Shown here: one piece after another, positions 41,902-53,908 of the stretch
How the letters are laid out: the number at the start of each line of letters is the position of its first letter
Position numbering within the stretch: position 1 is the first letter of the stretch
Origin: Desulfovibrio sp. G11
Lineage (GTDB): Bacteria; Desulfobacterota; Desulfovibrionia; Desulfovibrionales; Desulfovibrionaceae
Assembly (NCBI RefSeq): GCF_900243745.1
Contig: NZ_LT984798.1
Location: 3,060,001 to 3,124,000, forward strand
Reading direction: 5' to 3'
DNA: 64,000 nt
Notes under the pieces: generated by a model
Seen by the model: only the letters and a program-made list of their open reading frames with translations
What the model was told of the DNA's origin: nothing
The model's database searches: none
Made by a program: the position numbers and the translations under genes

Positions 41902-44337
41902 TCAGCTGCGTTTGCTTCTCCTGAACGCATTTTGTGCGTAATCGCCCAGTTGTTCAAGTCTTTTGTCTACGAGGTCATACAGGCTGCCGCGTGAAAAACC
42001 ACCATTTTTCAGTCTGCGACCTGCGGCAAGGCCGGTAAGTAACAGCAGGGCCTCTTCAATGCGACGCACTGCGTAAATGCTGAACTGTTTGTTTTCCACT
42101 GCCCGGAGAACATCGGGTGAGAGCATGAGGTGGTCTGCATTATCGTAGGGAATGATGACTCCCTGGGTGCCGGTCAGACCGTGTCTGGCACAGACTTTAT
42201 AAAAGCCCTCCACCTTGCGTGTGACGCCGCCCACAGCCATGATCTGGCCCGCATGGCTGACTGCACCCGTAAAAGCCAGATCAAGCCGTACGGGAACATC
42301 GGCCAGAGCCGAAAGCAGGGCCACCAGTTCCGCGCCCGAGGCGGAATCGCCTTCAATTCCCGCATAGCTCTGCTCAAAATACAGAGAGCCGGAAAGAACA
42401 AGAGGTTTTTTGCGGGCAAAAAGGTCGGTGAGGTAGCTTTTTATGATCATCATGGCCTTGGTGTGAATGGGCCCGCCAAGCTCCGCCTCACGCTCAAGGT
42501 CGATAATACCTTCGTGTCCCACGCCTACAGTACATGAAATGCAGTGGGGCAGGCCGAACTCAAAGTTTCCATGCCAGGTTACTGAAAGGCCGTTGACCTG
42601 GCCCACGGCTGTGCCGGACGTGCGCACCTTGATGAGCTCGCGGTCGTATTCTTCCATGAAAACTTCTTCCACAAGATTGGCTCGATAAATGCGCGCGGCA
42701 TGGGTTTCTTCCATGACGGGCGCGCTGACAGCAGCGGCCCCCTTTATGTGCGCCAGAGCAGAGGCCTCTATCATCAATTCGCGCAACAGGGGAAACTTGA
42801 GCGAAAGGCGGCGTTGATCTTCGCAAAGGTGTGACCCCAGATCCACGAGCCATGCCAGGGCCGTGCGATCAAAGGGGGGAAGCTCGCAACCCCGTATGAT
42901 GTGCGCGATATGGCCGAGATAATGACGGATGTTTGCCGCATTACGCTCTGTTTCATCCGCCATGTGCGCCTTGATGCGAAAAAGCTTTGGAAAGCGGTCG
43001 TCATTGACGAGCAGCCCTTCATACAGTTCTTCGCCGCCCACGAGCACAACCTTGAGGTCAAGGGGCAGAGGGTCGGGGCTGAGCCCCTTGGTCCGGATGG
43101 CGGTGTCCGGTGCTTCGCCGGTATCTTCAATGCGCGCCTGATCAGAGCGCAGGGCACGTAAGAGTCCTTCCCAGGCTGTGGGATGCTGCAAAAGGTCTTC
43201 GACGTGCAGTACCAGAAAGCCGCCATTGGCCTTGTGCAGGCTCCCTGCACGGATCAGGGTGAAGTCCGTGACAAGCGCGCCCATTTCTGATTCGCGTTCA
43301 ATACAGCCCAGAAGGTTCACGGCCGTGGGATGGTCATCGACCACAATGGGAGCGCCTTCCTGCTTGCTGTTATCCACCAGCACGTTTACGGCGTAGCGAT
43401 ACAGGACCATGTCTGCGCTGGGGCCGCCGTGCGAATCTCCGGTAAGGGAGGGCGGTACGCCGTCCCTGTGCAGAAACGCCTCGGTATTTTTCAGCATGTC
43501 TTCGCGCATGGCCGTAAAGTAGGCGGCCAGCTCATTACCAGGGCATGCCTTGAGCAGGCGCTGTTCAAGTGGGGTAAACAGGGCATCGAGCACTTGTCCC
43601 ATGGCTTCGCGTTCAAGGCCGCGCTCGTCATCCTGAAAGCTTTCTTCAGCCTTGTTCAGCTGGCGCATAAGGCCGGCCATGGACTGCACCAGGTTGTCAC
43701 CGCGGCTTTTCAGCTTGAGGCGGATGGTGCTGTCCAGGTTGTCAAACTCTTCTTCATTGAGCCTTTTACCCTCGACAAGGGGGTAGAGCGTAAGTCCCCC
43801 GTTTTCATCCATATCCAGGTTGAAGCCCTTGTCCACAGCTACCGAGTTCATTTTGCGCAGCAGGCCCATGCGGGCTGTCTGGAATTTGTCCACGAGCTTG
43901 GCCCGGCGCTTCAGGTACGTGCTGGCCTCAAACCTGCGGGGCAGCTCCTTGACGACGGCATCCACCATCTCCACCATGTGTTGCCTGAATTTTTTCCCCA
44001 GGCCCGCAGGCAGGGAAAAAAGCAGGGGGTGGTCCGGATCCTGAAAGTTATGCACGTAGACAAGGTCCGGCGGGGTGGGAGCTTTACGGGCCTGCGGGCG
44101 CAAATAGTCAAGAAGCATACGGGTGCGGCCCAGATCAGCCTCGCCGGAAAGGTAGATATGATAGCCGCGGGCCTTGATCTGCAGGGCAAGGTCCAGCGCC
44201 TGCATGGCACGGGGCTGGAAGGGATTTTTGCGCCCGTTGCGCAGCGGAGGGATGGCATGGCTGTCATCCCAGGGGATGCGGGCTGGGTCCATGGCAGCAT
44301 GCAGTCTGGATTCGGGCAGGGGAGAGATTTTGGACAT
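41902..44337 (-). CDS. Lon-like ATP-dependent protease (AAA_32/YcbZ type)
   Basis: An 811-residue protein with an N-terminal AAA-like region and a C-terminal S16 Lon protease domain. The catalytic serine is in EGDSASGAELVAL and the lysine in GGVTRKVEGF, spaced as in Lon. The Walker A equivalent reads SGEADLGRTRML, with Arg where Lys is usual; this is common in the YcbZ/AAA_32 branch. Walker B may be in the NGGFLVLHVEDLL segment. It is not canonical Lon because the N-terminal substrate-binding domain is absent. It is the last gene of the gmhA-fmdB-hemC run, 15 bp after hemC. Substrates are unknown. Confidence 0.85.
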   Translation of the reverse strand: MSKISPLPESRLHAAMDPARIPWDDSHAIPPLRNGRKNPFQPRAMQALDLALQIKARGYHIYLSGEADLGRTRMLLDYLRPQARKAPTPPDLVYVHNFQDPDHPLLFSLPAGLGKKFRQHMVEMVDAVVKELPRRFEASTYLKRRAKLVDKFQTARMGLLRKMNSVAVDKGFNLDMDENGGLTLYPLVEGKRLNEEEFDNLDSTIRLKLKSRGDNLVQSMAGLMRQLNKAEESFQDDERGLEREAMGQVLDALFTPLEQRLLKACPGNELAAYFTAMREDMLKNTEAFLHRDGVPPSLTGDSHGGPSADMVLYRYAVNVLVDNSKQEGAPIVVDDHPTAVNLLGCIERESEMGALVTDFTLIRAGSLHKANGGFLVLHVEDLLQHPTAWEGLLRALRSDQARIEDTGEAPDTAIRTKGLSPDPLPLDLKVVLVGGEELYEGLLVNDDRFPKLFRIKAHMADETERNAANIRHYLGHIAHIIRGCELPPFDRTALAWLVDLGSHLCEDQRRLSLKFPLLRELMIEASALAHIKGAAAVSAPVMEETHAARIYRANLVEEVFMEEYDRELIKVRTSGTAVGQVNGLSVTWHGNFEFGLPHCISCTVGVGHEGIIDLEREAELGGPIHTKAMMIIKSYLTDLFARKKPLVLSGSLYFEQSYAGIEGDSASGAELVALLSALADVPVRLDLAFTGAVSHAGQIMAVGGVTRKVEGFYKVCARHGLTGTQGVIIPYDNADHLMLSPDVLRAVENKQFSIYAVRRIEEALLLLTGLAAGRRLKNGGFSRGSLYDLVDKRLEQLGDYAQNAFRRSKRS

Positions 44338-46290: not shown

Positions 46291-47160
46291 ATGCAAAATC
46301 AACTCAAGCGCCACATTCTACTGGTCTGCAAGGCCCGCCACGAACGCGCCGCTCAACTGGGTGAAGAAATTCGCGCGTGGCTTGAAGAGCGTGGTCACAA
46401 AGCACATCTTGTAGAGGCCGGGCTGGACTCTTCCCTTTACACGGATGCCCTTGACTTTGTTGTGGTGCTTGGCGGTGACGGCACCATGCTCGGGGTCGCC
46501 CGGCGCCTTGTGGGCAGTGATGTGCCGGTGCTGGGTATCAACTTCGGGCGTGTCGGTTTTCTTACAGATGCCCAGCCGGAAAACTGGCGCGAAAAGCTTG
46601 CCGAATGTCTGGATGGACACGAGCCGGTTCGCTCCTGTATGGCACTTAGCTGGTCGCTTGTACGCGACGGCGAAGAAATTCAGGGCGGGGCGGCGGTTAA
46701 TGACGTGGTTGTCAGCCGGGGTTCCCTGTCCAGGCTGGTCTGCCTTGATATATGGGTTGACGGGCAACGCATGGGGTCGTTGCGCAGCGACGGCATCATA
46801 TTGTGTACGCCTGTGGGCAGTTCGGGCTACAGCGTATCCGCTGGCGGCCCGCTTCTTTATCCTGCTATGGATGCCATCGGCTTCACGCCTGTGTGCCCTT
46901 TTTTGAATACTATTTCCCCCATGGTATTTCCCGGATCGACAGACATAGAGCTTCAGATATTGCGCGGCTCTACGGACTGCTATCTTACGGTGGACGGGCA
47001 GGAAGGGCATAAACTGAAAAAAGACGACCTTGTGCGTATTTCCGGCCTGCCTGCGGCAGTGCGTTTTATGGGAGAAGGCACATGCTTTTTTGAGCGCCTG
47101 CGCAGCCGAGGTTTTGTCTTGCAGGGATCTGTGGGGAACTGTACGGGGGAAATGCTGTGA
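46291..47160 (+). CDS. nadK: NAD kinase
   Basis: Phosphorylates NAD to NADP. The 289-residue product shows the catalytic VVLGGDGTMLGVAR, the GINFGRVGFLTD loop, NDVVVSRG, and GIILCTPVGSSGYSVSAGGPLLYP, all diagnostic. The N-terminus has HILLVCKARHERA as expected for the first strand. Its last codons overlap the next gene by four bases (GTGA), so the two are translationally coupled. Confidence 0.95.
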   Translation: MQNQLKRHILLVCKARHERAAQLGEEIRAWLEERGHKAHLVEAGLDSSLYTDALDFVVVLGGDGTMLGVARRLVGSDVPVLGINFGRVGFLTDAQPENWREKLAECLDGHEPVRSCMALSWSLVRDGEEIQGGAAVNDVVVSRGSLSRLVCLDIWVDGQRMGSLRSDGIILCTPVGSSGYSVSAGGPLLYPAMDAIGFTPVCPFLNTISPMVFPGSTDIELQILRGSTDCYLTVDGQEGHKLKKDDLVRISGLPAAVRFMGEGTCFFERLRSRGFVLQGSVGNCTGEML

Positions 47161-48902
47161 ACAAGGCTCTTGCGCCTGCAAAGGTGTGCGATATCCGTCT
47201 GGGACAAAATGTTCGTTTTGATGCATGGCTGTACAGCATGCTCATGGATAACAATCTTGCGTACCGCATGAATCCCGATATTATCGCAAGCCCGGAGCAG
47301 ATGGCTTTTATGGTGCACATGGATCAGGATCAGGTGTACTTGCCCTGTTCGGACGCCACTTTTTCAATGCTCTGCGCCGGAACCCCTTCAGCCGAACTGC
47401 GCAATCAGTATAACCGCTCGTGGCGCATTATCGCGCGGCTGGTACGCTCGTTTGTTCCCGACAAGGCGCAGCAGCGGCGCATTTTGCAGTTTTGCCGTTA
47501 CCGTTTTTCACAGTATATCGCGCAACATACCCTGATTCCGTCACGCCTGGTCAAGCGGATGACCAGCCTTGTGCTTGCCCAGGGGCATATGACAGACGAC
47601 CCGTGGGAAGAGCGCCGTCGCGAATCAACCGGCAGCCAGCAGGAAATGCTGGCATTGCCCGAAATTCACGAGAATCTTGAAGCCATGCCGGGCGGATCGA
47701 TGCCCAAAGGAATATCCATCGCCCGCCGCAGTATGGATTATGTGGAGATGGCGCGGCTGCTCTGCCTTTCGGCCATGTCCCGTGACTGGCTTGAAAAAAA
47801 ACCTTCTGGCGGGGAAGTGCGCAGGGCTATGGAAGAAGCCCAGACAGACTGTGAAAGCCTGCGCCTGTATTTTGAGGCCAATGCCGGACGTTCGGGTACA
47901 GTGCTGTTTTTATGCGATGCTGACGGCGGCGTGCTGTTCGACCTTGTTATGGCACAAAGCCTTATCCGCATGGGGCACAGGGTCATTTTCGCGGTGAAGT
48001 CCGGGTTTTATTTTTTTGCGCCTACGCTTGATGATGTGGAAACAGATCCTTCGCTCAGGCCCTGGCTGCGTGGCGGCATAGTGTTGCGGCAAAACAAGCT
48101 GAGCAAAAACGAGCTGCTGCGGCATCTGCGTGAGCATCGGCTTGTGGTAATCGGCGATGGTACACGCGAAAGGCTTAACCTGTATCGTGTGTCGGTCACG
48201 TTTTCACGAGCCTGGAAAGAGGCGGATCTGGTCCTCGGCAAGGGCTGGCGCGCGGCGGATGTGCTGCTGGGCACCAGTCAGGAGTTTACACGCGATATTG
48301 TCTGTTACTGGCGTGACAGCAACGGCTTTCATATCAAATTGCGCAAGCACGCCCGGGGGGCGCGCAAATTCAGCGAAGACGCCATTGCGGCCCAGGCAGA
48401 AACCATCATCGCGGGCATGCGCGAAGCCAAGAGCCACGGGCGAACCATCATGTTCTACAGTTGCGTTATCGGTAGCATACCCGGTGAAACGTCAACGGCC
48501 ATCAGCCTTGTGCATGCTTTTGTAGACAATCTGCGTAAAAAAATGGATAATATTCTGATTATCAACCCCGCCGAGCATTTTATCGAAGGTATGGACGGGG
48601 ATGACCTCATGTATATGTGGGAACGCGTGCAACGCAGCGGCCTCATAGATGTGTGGCGTTTTCAGACAGTTGAAGATATTGAGGAAAGCTTTGCCCTGTT
48701 GGGGCGAAAGGTGCCTCCGCAATGGTCTGGAAAAGATTCCACCTATTCGACGGGCTGCACTAAAGAAATGCGCATCGCACTTGATGTACAGAGCAAAAAC
48801 CGTGAAATGCAGCTCATTGGGCCTGAACCCAGACTTTTCTTCCGCCGGGGAGAATACGGGGTGGGCAAGTATTTTGACGCGAGCATTCCTCATCAGAGCT
48901 GA
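47157..48902 (+). CDS. ARMT1-like (DUF89) domain protein of unknown function
   Basis: A 581-residue protein starting GTG 47157, overlapping nadK. Residues about 250-400 follow the ARMT1-like/DUF89 pattern: TVLFLCDADGGVLFDLVMAQ, HRVIFAVKSGFYFFAPTLDD, VVIGDGTRERLNL and ADLVLGKGWRAADVLL. The usual DNAGE metal motif of DUF89 phosphatases reads DADGG here, so the active site may be altered. The N-terminal 230 residues resemble the helical bundle of the family. The last about 160 residues (IINPAEHFIEGMDGDDLMYM, GKDSTYSTGCTKEMRIALDV) match nothing I know. DUF89 enzymes are metal-dependent phosphatases of damaged metabolites; activity here is unproven. gatB follows 26 bp later. Confidence 0.7.
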   Translation: MNKALAPAKVCDIRLGQNVRFDAWLYSMLMDNNLAYRMNPDIIASPEQMAFMVHMDQDQVYLPCSDATFSMLCAGTPSAELRNQYNRSWRIIARLVRSFVPDKAQQRRILQFCRYRFSQYIAQHTLIPSRLVKRMTSLVLAQGHMTDDPWEERRRESTGSQQEMLALPEIHENLEAMPGGSMPKGISIARRSMDYVEMARLLCLSAMSRDWLEKKPSGGEVRRAMEEAQTDCESLRLYFEANAGRSGTVLFLCDADGGVLFDLVMAQSLIRMGHRVIFAVKSGFYFFAPTLDDVETDPSLRPWLRGGIVLRQNKLSKNELLRHLREHRLVVIGDGTRERLNLYRVSVTFSRAWKEADLVLGKGWRAADVLLGTSQEFTRDIVCYWRDSNGFHIKLRKHARGARKFSEDAIAAQAETIIAGMREAKSHGRTIMFYSCVIGSIPGETSTAISLVHAFVDNLRKKMDNILIINPAEHFIEGMDGDDLMYMWERVQRSGLIDVWRFQTVEDIEESFALLGRKVPPQWSGKDSTYSTGCTKEMRIALDVQSKNREMQLIGPEPRLFFRRGEYGVGKYFDASIPHQS

Positions 48903-48928: not shown

Positions 48929-50365
48929 ATGGCCGTTTATGAAGCCGTTATCGGCCTGGAAGTGCATGTGCAACTGGCCACGGCCTCCAAACTGTTCTGT
49001 TCCTGCCCGACAACCTTCGGCCAGCCTCCGAACTCCAATGTGTGCGAAGTATGCTCCGGCATGCCCGGATCGTTGCCCGTGCCTAACGGACAGGCCATAC
49101 ATTTCGCCACGCTGGTGGGCCTTGCTACAGGCTGCACCATCAATCCGCGCTCCATTTTCGCGCGTAAAAACTATTTTTATCCGGACCTGCCCGCAGGGTA
49201 TCAGATATCGCAGTTTGAACTGCCCATCTGCGAGCACGGGCACCTGGACATTGAAGTAGATGGCGTCTGCAAAAGAGTGGGCATTACCCGCATTCATATG
49301 GAAAACGACGCGGGCAAAAACATACACGCTCAGGGAGAGAACATCAGCTACGTGGACCTGAACAGGGCCGGTACGCCGCTGGTGGAAATAGTCTCCGACC
49401 CTGATATGCGCTCTGCGGCTGAAGCTGTCGCCTACCTCAAGGACCTGTATGCCATTGTTACCTATCTTGGCGTGTGCGACGGCAACATGGAAGAAGGCAG
49501 CTTTCGCTGTGATGCCAACGTCTCTTTGCGGCCCGTGGGGGCGAAGGAATTCGGCACCCGTACGGAACTGAAAAATCTTAATTCGTTCCGTAACGTGCAG
49601 CGCGCTATTGAATGCGAAATGGCGCGCCAGCAAGACCTTCTGGATGACGGCGAAAAAGTCGTACAGGAAACACGCCTTTACGATGCGGTAAAAAATATTA
49701 CTGCCTCCATGCGCAGCAAGGAAGAGGCACATGACTACCGTTACTTCCCTGACCCGGACATCCTGCCCATAGAGATTTCTGATTCGGACATGGAACGCTG
49801 GAAAGCAGAACTGCCCGAACTGCCCAAGGCCAGGGCCGCGCGGTTTGTGGAGATGACAGGCTTGCCCGCTGCGGAAGTTGAAGTGCTGGTGCAAAGCCGT
49901 GGTCTGGCGGATTTTTTTGAATCCGCCGCCGGTCTTTCTGATGCCCGCAAAGCGGCAAACTTCATGCTTGGCCCATTGCTGCGCGAATGTAACAGCCGGG
50001 GCGTCAACGCGGCGGATCCGGCCGCATGGAACATGAAGCCCGAAGCGCTGGCAGAACTGGTGCGCATTGTGGACCAGGGGCTGATCAGCTCCAAAATTGC
50101 CAATGATATTTTTGGCGACCTGTTTGAAACAGGCGTCATGCCCGAAAGGTATGTGAAAGAAAAAGGGCTTGTGCAGATATCCGACTCTTCGGCGTTGGAA
50201 GAAGCCGTGGACGCGGTTATTGCGGCCAATCCCGCCGAGGTGGAAGCATACAGAGGCGGCAAAACCAAACTCATCAGTTTTTTTGTGGGTCAGATCATGC
50301 GCGCCACCAAGGGCAAGGCCAATCCGGCCCTGGTGAACGAGTTACTGGCAAAAAAACTGTCGTAG
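48929..50365 (+). CDS. gatB: Aspartyl/glutamyl-tRNA amidotransferase subunit B
   Basis: GatB is the kinase/tRNA-binding subunit of GatCAB, which amidates Glu-tRNA(Gln) and Asp-tRNA(Asn). The 478-residue product begins [20 protein letters not shown] and shows the conserved [20 protein letters not shown] zinc-binding and PGSLPVPN segments, [16 protein letters not shown], and the C-terminal YqeY-like tail. gatA and gatC are not adjacent, so the complex is encoded from dispersed loci. A terminator follows 40 bp after the stop. Confidence 0.97.
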
Positions 50366-51539: not shown

Positions 51540-52685
51540 TTACAGTTTCACATCCGGTTGCGGGTCTACAGCCCTGTAGTCCATGGTGCGCTGTATGGGG
51601 GTGAAGCCCGCAGCGTGGATGACCTTGTGAATATCGGCCCGGCTCATATGATAGGACACGCCTGCCGCAGCCACCACGTTTTCTTCGATCATCAGGGATC
51701 CGAAATCGTTGGCCCCGTAAAAAAGAGCCAACTGGGCCACCTGTGGCCCCATGGTCACCCAGGAGGACTGGATGTTGGGCACGTTGTCCAGCACAAGACG
51801 CGAAACTGCCAGCAGGCGCAAGTAGGCCGGGGCAGGCAGGGGGGGGACCTCGATACGTGTGTGGGCAGGCTGGAAGGTCCAGGGAATGAATGCGGTAAAA
51901 CCGTGGGTGCGATCCTGTACCTCACGCACTGCAAAAAGATGGTCCAATCTGTGCGAGGCTTTTTCCTCATGGCCGAACATCATTGTGGCGGTGGTGCGCA
52001 GCCCCAGCTTGTGCGCTTCTTCCATAACATCGAGCCATTGCTCAGCAGTGCATTTATTGGGTGAAACCTGGGCGCGTATGCCAGTATGCAGGATTTCAGC
52101 CCCGCCGCCCGGCAGGGAATGCAGACCGGCCTCTTTCAGGCGGCGCAGCACTTCGGCAACAGAAATATCGAATTTTTCAGCCCAGAAGAATATTTCCGGT
52201 GGTGAAAAGGCATGAATATGCAGCTGCGGCCACGTCTGCCGCAGCCAGCGTAAAAGATCTTCATACCATTCCAGCGGCAGGTCGGGGTGGTGACCGCCCT
52301 GGAGCAATATCTGCGTACCGCCGAGAGCCAACGTTTCTTCCACTTTGCGGCTCATTTCATCCCGGCTTATGACGTAACAGTCTTCGTGATCCGGGGCGCG
52401 GAAAAAAGCGCAGAATCGGCAGGCGCACACGCATACGTTCGAATAATTGATGTTGCGGTCGCCTACATATGTAACCACGGGGTCAGGATGCAGGCGCAAG
52501 CGCATGGCATGAGCAAGCTGCGCGAGTGTGTGAAGGTCGGCCTTGTAATACAGAATTTCTGCGGCGCTGCGGTCAAGCCGTTGACCGGCTGCGGCCAGGG
52601 CTGCGGCTTCGCGCACATCGGCAAAATCCTTATCTTGTCCGCCATGTATGGCAAAGGGGCTGTGTGCGGGGGAAAAAGTGCTCAC
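51540..52685 (-). CDS. mqnC: Cyclic dehypoxanthinyl futalosine synthase MqnC
   Basis: A radical SAM enzyme that cyclises dehypoxanthine futalosine. In the 381-residue product the [4Fe-4S] ligands are in NVCVCACRFCAFFRAPDHED (CxxxCxxC), followed by LLQGGHHPDLPLEWYEDLL and LPGGGAEIL motifs shared by MqnC and MqnE. It starts with GTG 52685 overlapping the mqnE stop (GTGA), indicating coupling. Neighbours mqnE and mqnA, with mqnD divergent, make the assignment firm. Confidence 0.95.
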   Translation of the reverse strand: MSTFSPAHSPFAIHGGQDKDFADVREAAALAAAGQRLDRSAAEILYYKADLHTLAQLAHAMRLRLHPDPVVTYVGDRNINYSNVCVCACRFCAFFRAPDHEDCYVISRDEMSRKVEETLALGGTQILLQGGHHPDLPLEWYEDLLRWLRQTWPQLHIHAFSPPEIFFWAEKFDISVAEVLRRLKEAGLHSLPGGGAEILHTGIRAQVSPNKCTAEQWLDVMEEAHKLGLRTTATMMFGHEEKASHRLDHLFAVREVQDRTHGFTAFIPWTFQPAHTRIEVPPLPAPAYLRLLAVSRLVLDNVPNIQSSWVTMGPQVAQLALFYGANDFGSLMIEENVVAAAGVSYHMSRADIHKVIHAAGFTPIQRTMDYRAVDPQPDVKL

Positions 52686-53824
52686 TGGCGCGCCTCCGGA
52701 CTGTCGGTATCATTGAGGGTGTTAAACGTGGCGTTACGGCGAACAGGCGTAAAGCCCGAGGCGCGGATGACATGCTCCAGTTCGGCAATGGTCATGCCTT
52801 GCGCCGACTGGGCGCCAGCCATATGGCCGATGCGTTCTTCGATGATGGTTCCATCCAAATCATCGGCGCCGTACCACAGGGCCAGGGGGGCCAGTTTGTG
52901 GCCCATCATTATCCAGTAGGCTTTAAGGTGGGGAATATTGTCCAGCATAAGGCGGGAGACTGCCACCGTGCGCAACTGGTCAAGGCCGCGCTGCGGGCCA
53001 ACTTTGTCTTCCGGCAGCTTGAGCCGGCTGTTTTCTGTGAGGAAGGGCAGCGGAATAAAGCAGGTGAAGCCGCCGCTTTTATCCTGCTGCTCACGCAGGC
53101 GACAAAGGTGGTCGATCCGGTGTTCGTAGGTTTCCAGGTGGCCGTAGAGCATGGTGCAGTTGGTCTTGATGCCCAGGCTGTGTGCTTCGCCGGAAATGCG
53201 CAGCCATGCGGTTGCATCGGCCTTGTGAGGACAAATCTGCGGGCGCAGTTCTTCATCAAATATTTCCGCGCCACCGCCTGGCATCATGACCAGCCCGGCT
53301 GCCTGAAGCCGTCGAAGAACCTCAAGGGTGCTGATGCCTTCAAGCCGTGAGAAATGTTCAATTTCCACAGCCGTAAAAGCTTTTACAGGCAAGTTTGGAT
53401 TAAAATGCCGCACGGTGCGTATCATGTCTTCAAACCACGCAAGAGGCCGCGTGGGGTGGCAGCCGCCCACTATGTGCAGTTCGTCAAGGTGCAGTGGAGT
53501 AGAGTCCGCGTCGCGCAGGCGGTCCAGCACGTCATCAAGGCTCAGGGCAAACGCGCCTGCTTCGTTTTCCTCATCTCGCCGGAAAGCGCAAAACGTACAG
53601 CCGTTGACACAAACATTGGTATAGTTGATCTGCCGGTTTACCACGTAAAAAGCCTTGTGTCCGTGCAAACGGCAGCGCACATGCAGAGCCAGCGCTCCCA
53701 CGGCGGTAACGTCGGGACAATGGAACAGGGCAAGGCCGTCTTCAAAGCTCAGCCGCTGCCCTGAAAGCACTTTTTCATGGATGGACGAAAGGCCCAGTGC
53801 GGCGTAGTATGCAGCGTCTAACAT
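52682..53824 (-). CDS. mqnE: Aminofutalosine synthase MqnE
   Basis: A radical SAM enzyme joining 3-enolpyruvylbenzoate and SAM to give aminofutalosine. The 380-residue product has the iron-sulfur motif NVCVNGCTFCAFRRDEENE, then LHIVGGCHPTRPLAWFEDMI and MMPGGGAEIFDEELRPQICP. ATG 53824 (MLDAAYYAALGL) has AGGA eight bases upstream; the longer frame reaches into the mqnD leader. It heads the minus-strand mqnE-mqnC-mqnA set, 84 bp from the divergent mqnD start. Confidence 0.95.
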   Translation of the reverse strand: MLDAAYYAALGLSSIHEKVLSGQRLSFEDGLALFHCPDVTAVGALALHVRCRLHGHKAFYVVNRQINYTNVCVNGCTFCAFRRDEENEAGAFALSLDDVLDRLRDADSTPLHLDELHIVGGCHPTRPLAWFEDMIRTVRHFNPNLPVKAFTAVEIEHFSRLEGISTLEVLRRLQAAGLVMMPGGGAEIFDEELRPQICPHKADATAWLRISGEAHSLGIKTNCTMLYGHLETYEHRIDHLCRLREQQDKSGGFTCFIPLPFLTENSRLKLPEDKVGPQRGLDQLRTVAVSRLMLDNIPHLKAYWIMMGHKLAPLALWYGADDLDGTIIEERIGHMAGAQSAQGMTIAELEHVIRASGFTPVRRNATFNTLNDTDSPEARQ

Positions 53825-53908
53825 GATGAAATCCTGTGGGGTTGATTGGGCCGGAAGGGCCGCAAGCAGAGTAGGCCGCCCGCCGCAAGCTGTCAATGTG
53901 AGGAATAT

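Follow-up and report, generated by a model that had tools for sequence, protein, structure and literature searches.

In the bifunctional NADP phosphatase/NAD kinase, the partner is an inositol-monophosphatase-type domain that is unrelated to DUF89. TIR domains have a C-x-x-E motif at the start of a catalytic-type helix.

PANK4 is a fusion of a DUF89 phosphatase with another half, the kinase, that is dead; mutating either of its conserved, catalytic aspartates is reported to have abolished the phosphatase activity (PMC9352595). In DNPH1, Glu104 is described as the nucleophile and Asp80 as the acid, while Glu55-His56 occupy a small helix that precedes a mobile loop; the residues of the motif order are Y24, E55, H56, D80, and E104 (PMC10603095). 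The GSI motif of DNPH1 was taken from PDB alignments.

The window analyzed here is a stretch of 64,000 nucleotides from Desulfovibrio sp. G11 (contig NZ_LT984798.1, positions 3,060,001 to 3,124,000). It carries a gene for a DUF89-type protein directly behind nadK.

Gene and locus

The gene is an ORF of 581 codons for amino acids with a GTG start (ORF list and translation). The nadK stop codon lies inside the sequence GTGA, and the two genes overlap by 4 bases; gatB starts 26 bases past the end of the DUF89-type gene. These ORF coordinates agree with a preliminary description made from the letters of this DNA, which had noted both the overlap and gatB as the next gene. The features, in window coordinates, are as follows.

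46291 to 47160, + strand: nadK, ATP-NAD kinase (PF20143, 93.8 bits; PF01513, 71.8 bits)
47157 to 48902, + strand: gene for the DUF89-derived protein with a conserved C-terminal domain, 581 aa (ORF, Pfam, and AlphaFold2)
47277 to 48359, + strand: predicted DUF89-fold module, residues ~41–401 (Foldseek and VIA-align; 1xfi, 2g8l, 2ffj, and other DUF89 structures)
47916 to 47930, + strand: D254-A-D-G-G258, where ordinary DUF89 proteins have DNxGE (alignment of 25 ordinary and 63 family proteins)
48018 to 48020, + strand: Ala288, at the site of the second metal/catalytic Asp of ordinary DUF89 proteins (Asp in 25/25 ordinary, 0/63 family)
48156 to 48170, + strand: family-specific D334-G-T-R-E338 (D334 with E338 in 63/63 family, 0/25 ordinary)
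48435 to 48899, + strand: undescribed C-terminal alpha/beta domain, residues ~427–581 (alignment; AlphaFold2 model of 418–581)
48471 to 48485, + strand: G439-S-I-P-G443 loop after the first strand of the C-terminal domain (G439, S440, and P442 in 63/63; G443 in 62/63)
48573 to 48578, + strand: E473-H474, in a short helix directly after strand 2 (E in 58/63, H in 60/63)
48594 to 48623, + strand: D480, D482, D483 and W488-E489, in or just before helix 2 (each 63/63)
48747 to 48767, + strand: S531-T-G-C-T-K-E537, start of the helix (532–547) before the last strand (each 63/63)
48929 to 50365, + strand: gatB, the next downstream gene (PF02934, 409 bits)

Fold of the DUF89 module

Pfam placed PF01937 on residues 220–363 of the window protein (score 31.2 bits, gathering cut-off 25, E = 1.7e-7). 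A PF01937 search of the strain's whole genome returned 0 matches and missed even the window protein; it is uninformative on other DUF89 genes. NCBIfam had no match to the whole 581-aa protein up to E 1, and the best PDB sequence match, a Slingshot phosphatase (E = 0.54), was attributed to chance.

An AlphaFold2 model was calculated with 63 aligned relatives (mean pLDDT 89.1, pTM 0.86). When this full model was compared to the PDB in Foldseek, the top 15 chains were all DUF89-type entries. In VIA-align, the closest structures were At2g17340 (1xfi; Z 23.2, rmsd 3.2, 299 residues aligned), PH1575 (2g8l; Z 21.4), and AF1104 (2ffj; Z 21.2). Ten more DUF89-type entries followed at Z 15.0–16.5, and the next chain, glutamate 5-kinase, reached only 8.2. 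The range matched to DUF89 structures stops near residue 400. The model thus confirms a predicted DUF89 fold over residues ~41–401, and the DUF89 core that had been recognized in the preliminary description is borne out. Residues ~20–115 (window ~47214–47501) also gave a weak profile match to phage late transcription activator C (E = 0.004); with the DUF89 alignment spanning residues 41–398, this match is probably a chance one.

Metal site

The 63 relatives were compared to 25 ordinary DUF89 proteins from other genomes of the phylum, the 25 being part of a longer list. The reading frames of the ordinary proteins were set from hit coordinates alone, avoiding a circular use of the motif pattern; frames chosen by the pattern gave the same 25/25. 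In the alignment, the complete triad Asp254/Asn255/Asp288 was present in 25/25 ordinary DUF89 proteins and in 0/63 relatives. Taken singly, Asp254 was found in 39 of the 63 relatives, Asn255 in 2, and Asp288 in none; Glu258 occurred in 12/63 relatives versus 24/25 ordinary proteins. The DADGG motif, flagged earlier as an alteration of the usual metal motif, is therefore not a quirk of this strain: as judged from the alignment, the metal site is gone in each of the 63 relatives examined. Residues 254 and 288 were equated with D623 and D659 of PANK4 by their spacing (36 residues in PANK4, 34 here) and surrounding motif rather than by a computed alignment. Since the triad is complete in all 25 ordinary proteins and in none of the 63 relatives, phosphatase activity of the window protein is unlikely. 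The role in damage control as a phosphatase, which had been thought conceivable, loses its footing with this joint absence.

Conservation of the C-terminal domain and sequence searches

The C-terminal residues had been treated as an appendage, yet no other part of the protein is as conserved as the last ~155 of them. Their mean identity to the window protein was 0.71, versus 0.42 for the DUF89 part (62 relatives), and in 62/62 relatives the C-terminal part was the nearer of the two. Mean column identity in the alignments was 74% for residues 418–581 and 49% for the whole protein. Among the 63 relatives, 44 positions of the C-terminal part were invariant, compared to 19 of the DUF89 module; the former include GSxP, NP, D480, D482, D483, WE489, and STGCTKE537. 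When folded alone in AlphaFold2, residues 418–581 had a mean pLDDT of 87.8. The tail at 565–581 is conserved yet was modeled with low confidence.

That these residues fit no known domain had been noted before, and nothing convincing was found in Pfam, NCBIfam, PHROGs, PADLOC, or the sequences of the PDB. Pfam had no match to the 164 C-terminal residues of the window protein up to E 10. When all 63 C-terminal domains were searched, the Pfam matches were scattered and weak (best: DUF4532, 0.03, three members; DUF2415, 0.12, seven members; Flavodoxin_2, 0.25, one member), and up to E 10 neither PF05014 nor TIR was among them. A profile of the 63 domains matched no PDB sequence up to E 10. No PADLOC match to the domain was found up to E 1, and PHROGs gave only three weak matches to it (best E = 0.14). 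Among the papers listed in literature searches, no title or abstract opening dealt with this protein. In a term search of the main text of the D. vulgaris mutant-library paper, “DUF89”, “nadK”, and “NAD kinase” had 0 occurrences (PMC10102598).

Structural neighbors of the C-terminal domain

When the C-terminal model was submitted to VIA-align, 18 of the 19 top rows were nucleoside deoxyribosyltransferases (NDTs), DNPH1, or TIR-bearing chains (Z 5.4–7.8, a range below 8 that may reflect merely a common arrangement). These 18 rows represent ~7 different proteins, and nine of them are one enzyme, CtNDT. The best neighbor was 7m5h, a nucleoside 2-deoxyribosyltransferase (Z 7.8, rmsd 3.3, 103 residues aligned); the exception among the 19 was a D-Ala-D-Ala ligase (5.7). 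In a library of viral structures, NDT-named proteins took ranks 2, 21, 22, 29, 36, and 48 of 50. The match at rank 2 had a probability of 0.96, none of the NDT-named matches had E <1e-3, and RecA/helicase entries were intermixed. Foldseek found nothing in the PDB at <1e-3; RecA chains came first (E = 4e-3). A RecA/P-loop reading was rejected, given a TM of ~0.3 and no Walker A lysine; residue 444, after GSIPG, is Q in 50, E in 12, and K in 1 of the 63 sequences.

Assuming no gap at the start of the alignments, F433 (residue 16 of the model) fell on Tyr7 in 9/9 CtNDT rows and on Tyr24 in one of the two DNPH1 rows. At this position, where NDT and DNPH1 have Tyr, Phe433 is found in 63/63 relatives; the adjoining Y434 is present in 60/63. 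In the model and alignment, the short helix with E473-H474 is followed by a loop of lower confidence and then by the invariant acids of helix 2.

Profile-profile comparisons were carried out in hhalign. Against a PF05014 set of 15 sequences, one of which (L189) is below Pfam's cut-off, the probability was 4.8 and the register was wrong; against eight DNPH1-like sequences (the ninth, L211, was lost in trimming), it was 0.35. The C-terminal alignment is low in diversity, with a Neff of only 1.97, so these failed tests lower the standing of the NDT/DNPH1 idea rather than exclude it. Because they gave no NDT/DNPH1 signal, the weak modeled resemblance to NDT/DNPH1/TIR proteins, with its similarly placed invariant residues, is treated as a suggestive lead.

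Distribution

A pattern scan of 84,980 species, which alone covered phyla beyond Desulfobacterota, yielded 265 matching stretches, and 234 of these encode relatives; the relatives analyzed were the best 80 of the 234. Most titles among these 80 were Desulfovibrio, Desulfovibrionaceae, or related families. For relatives at a greater distance the names were Desulfobacteraceae, Deltaproteobacteria, Syntrophobacterales, and Desulfobacterota, and one title gave “Proteobacteria” only. Of 395 genomes sampled in the phylum, 38 carried full-length relatives (>600 bits); the other matches there covered only a portion of the model's DUF89 section, in open frames mostly of ~300 aa. With 234/265 stretches and 38/395 genomes carrying relatives, the gene is not a product of chance.

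Among sampled genomes of the order (completeness at least 90%), 176 of 199 had the C-terminal domain, with one match each; among the matches listed, each lay in an open frame 553 aa or longer. The family was missing from the other 23 genomes. Nineteen of the 20 listed were 2.8 Mb or smaller, yet many genomes so small keep the gene. The C-terminal domain was not found on 72,556 plasmids at E 0.01, and of 20 stretches of viral contigs that fit its pattern, 0 were confirmed. No stand-alone copy occurred among the matches listed for genomes of the phylum and order, nor on the plasmids or viral contigs.

Linkage to nadK

For the upstream survey, the best 80 of the 234 loci were used; four had too little sequence upstream, leaving 76 testable. 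In 61 of them nadK lay within 300 bp upstream, in two it was farther off, and in 13 it was absent. The linkage, which the preliminary description had left to be surveyed, is therefore conserved far beyond this strain. The 4-base overlap, measured from the start of the match, occurred in six loci.

In one clade, loci L072–L080, nadK linkage was found in 0/8 testable loci; the clade is monophyletic with a support of 1.0 in the tree of the 63 aligned relatives. The other five loci without nadK are L034, L040, L043, L050, and L060, and a GidA-family gene stands there in L040 and L043. Downstream, gatB is close in Desulfovibrio-type loci; in many others it is ~2 kb off or missing from the sequence retrieved around the locus. 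In L054, MltA and DUF4254 genes lie between the DUF89-type gene and gatB. Compared with these flanking genes, the nadK pair is the more stable arrangement, though not a universal one.

In L072 (243–4254), Pfam identified a nicotinate phosphoribosyltransferase (NAPRTase) gene divergent from the DUF89-type gene, with genes for an AMP-binding enzyme and a 344-aa protein beside them. The 344-aa protein had been taken by eye for a nicotinamidase, a candidate that was dropped; it has no Pfam match of any kind. NAPRTase was placed beside the gene by Pfam only in L072 and by eye in L073, L075, and L078. As a link of this second clade to NAD salvage it counts for little, because these loci are closely related to each other and the genes divergently oriented.

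Interpretation

The C-terminal domain is almost frozen in evolution and the metal residues of the DUF89 module are lost; thus, the tail domain probably does the work. The favored reading, to which we assign a probability of roughly 0.4, is a disarmed DUF89 module joined to a new, possibly N-glycosidase-like domain, with the tail being catalytic by chemistry of the NDT/DNPH1/TIR kind. The alignments indicate descent from a metal-dependent DUF89 phosphatase whose metal site has been taken apart. The module would persist as a folded, constrained platform, probably binding either the C-terminal domain or some phosphorylated ligand, with no metal-dependent hydrolysis. From its extreme conservation, we infer that the C-terminal alpha/beta domain would house most of the activity, and the structural comparison suggests that it most likely works like the NDT/DNPH1/TIR group. 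Following the same structural lead, invariant E537 may serve as the nucleophile or catalytic Glu, the invariant acid E489 or D482/D483 as the proton donor, and the GSIPG loop may lie near the phosphate or sugar; the N-glycosidic bond of a nucleotide-type compound would be cleaved or exchanged. Because the gene pair with NAD kinase is conserved, an NAD(P)-related nucleotide is conceivable as the substrate, as a candidate and not more. Against an NDT-like tail stand the missing sequence-level support, the RecA chains at the head of the Foldseek ranking, the Z scores under 8, Phe433 in place of Tyr, and the long link before the E537 helix; the L072–L080 clade without upstream nadK counts against this reading too, as do the invariant charged residues of the DUF89 module, which would also fit activity there.

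Those residues lead to a possible, if doubtful, alternative. Of the 19 invariant positions in residues 41–401, 11 are charged or amide-bearing (R130, K133, K281, D293, K317, D334, E338, N341, R351, K354, and E355), so the module has not simply decayed. K281 and D293 are common to the family and ordinary DUF89 proteins, whereas the D334/E338 pair is confined to the family. The DUF89 cleft may therefore have been remodeled, with K281, D293, K317, D334, E338, N341, R351, K354, and E355 forming a new active site of different chemistry and the C-terminal domain closing over it as a lid or partner; yet this is by far the more variable part of the protein, and no DUF89 enzyme is known to use such a residue set.

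It is unlikely that the protein is a non-catalytic binder (regulator or scaffold) of NAD kinase or another partner, translated with nadK via the overlapping start. The stability of the nadK-first pair while flanking genes change, the very many C-terminal invariants, and the conserved, low-confidence tail would suit such a role, but the 13 testable loci with no upstream nadK do not, and in our judgment the invariant D/E/K/C clusters look catalytic.

A more specific form of the favored reading, in which the N-glycosidase with its disarmed DUF89 module would serve Desulfovibrio and its relatives as a housekeeping enzyme that cleaves NAD(P) or nucleotides, co-expressed with NAD kinase and clearing or recycling damaged or surplus NAD(P)-type nucleotides, is rather improbable in its entirety. 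It is very improbable that other residues have taken over as metal ligands and the protein remains a damage-control phosphatase: the DUF89 fold, a Pfam match above cut-off, alternative acids close to the motif in sequence, and the existence elsewhere of a fused NADP phosphatase/NAD kinase (an NCBIfam model name) speak for it, but no relative has the complete triad and the second Asp is never present.

The protein is present as a single copy in most genomes of the order, and its near-frozen domain is undescribed in Pfam, NCBIfam, PHROGs, and PADLOC. The activity suggested by its Pfam name, ARMT1-like, has probably been lost. Since the link to NAD kinase is conserved, the protein can be tested directly in Desulfovibrio by genetics and biochemistry.

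Nearby genes

The genes mqnC and mqnE of the futalosine pathway to menaquinone are adjacent (window 51540–53896, − strand). The new domain was considered as a missing futalosine hydrolase; the genome has its own elsewhere (TIGR03664, 130.6 bits against 124.7), so the idea of a missing N-glycosidase was dropped. A divergent Lon-related protease of 811 aa is encoded at window 41902–44337 (− strand; LonB model, 112.8 bits against a cut-off of 516.6).

Comparison with known systems

Relative to the DUF89/ARMT1-like phosphatases (PF01937: PH1575, AF1104, At2g17340, yeast and human ARMT1, and the C-terminal domain of PANK4), the predicted fold is kept (Z 15–23), as are G257, D262, K281, D293, and mostly K362-G363. 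Unlike them, the family has an insert of ~24 residues after D293, which includes the invariant K317, and an additional C-terminal domain, and all 63 relatives examined lack the metal triad. In PANK4 the dead half is the kinase; here it would be the DUF89 part.

The C-terminal domain resembles DNPH1 in the order of GSI-x-G, E-H in a short helix after strand 2, an acid in helix 2, and a Glu opening the helix before the last strand, and the G-x-x-x-E spacing of the last motif is that of NDT sequences (PF05014). It differs from both in having no sequence-profile match, in Phe433 where the Tyr would lie, and in its fusion to a DUF89 module; compared to DNPH1, the link before the Glu helix is also longer, with ~29 residues between strand 3 and the helix of E537. 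The TIR domains of SPARTA, RPPT, and RPS4 are structural neighbors (Z 5.4–7.1), and the window domain likewise has C-x-x-E at the start of a catalytic-type helix; unlike TIR, it has no Pfam TIR or PADLOC match and belongs to a single-copy gene found across the order rather than a patchy defense gene. In the bifunctional NADP phosphatase/NAD kinase (PRK14076 model), a second enzyme is coupled to NAD kinase as well.
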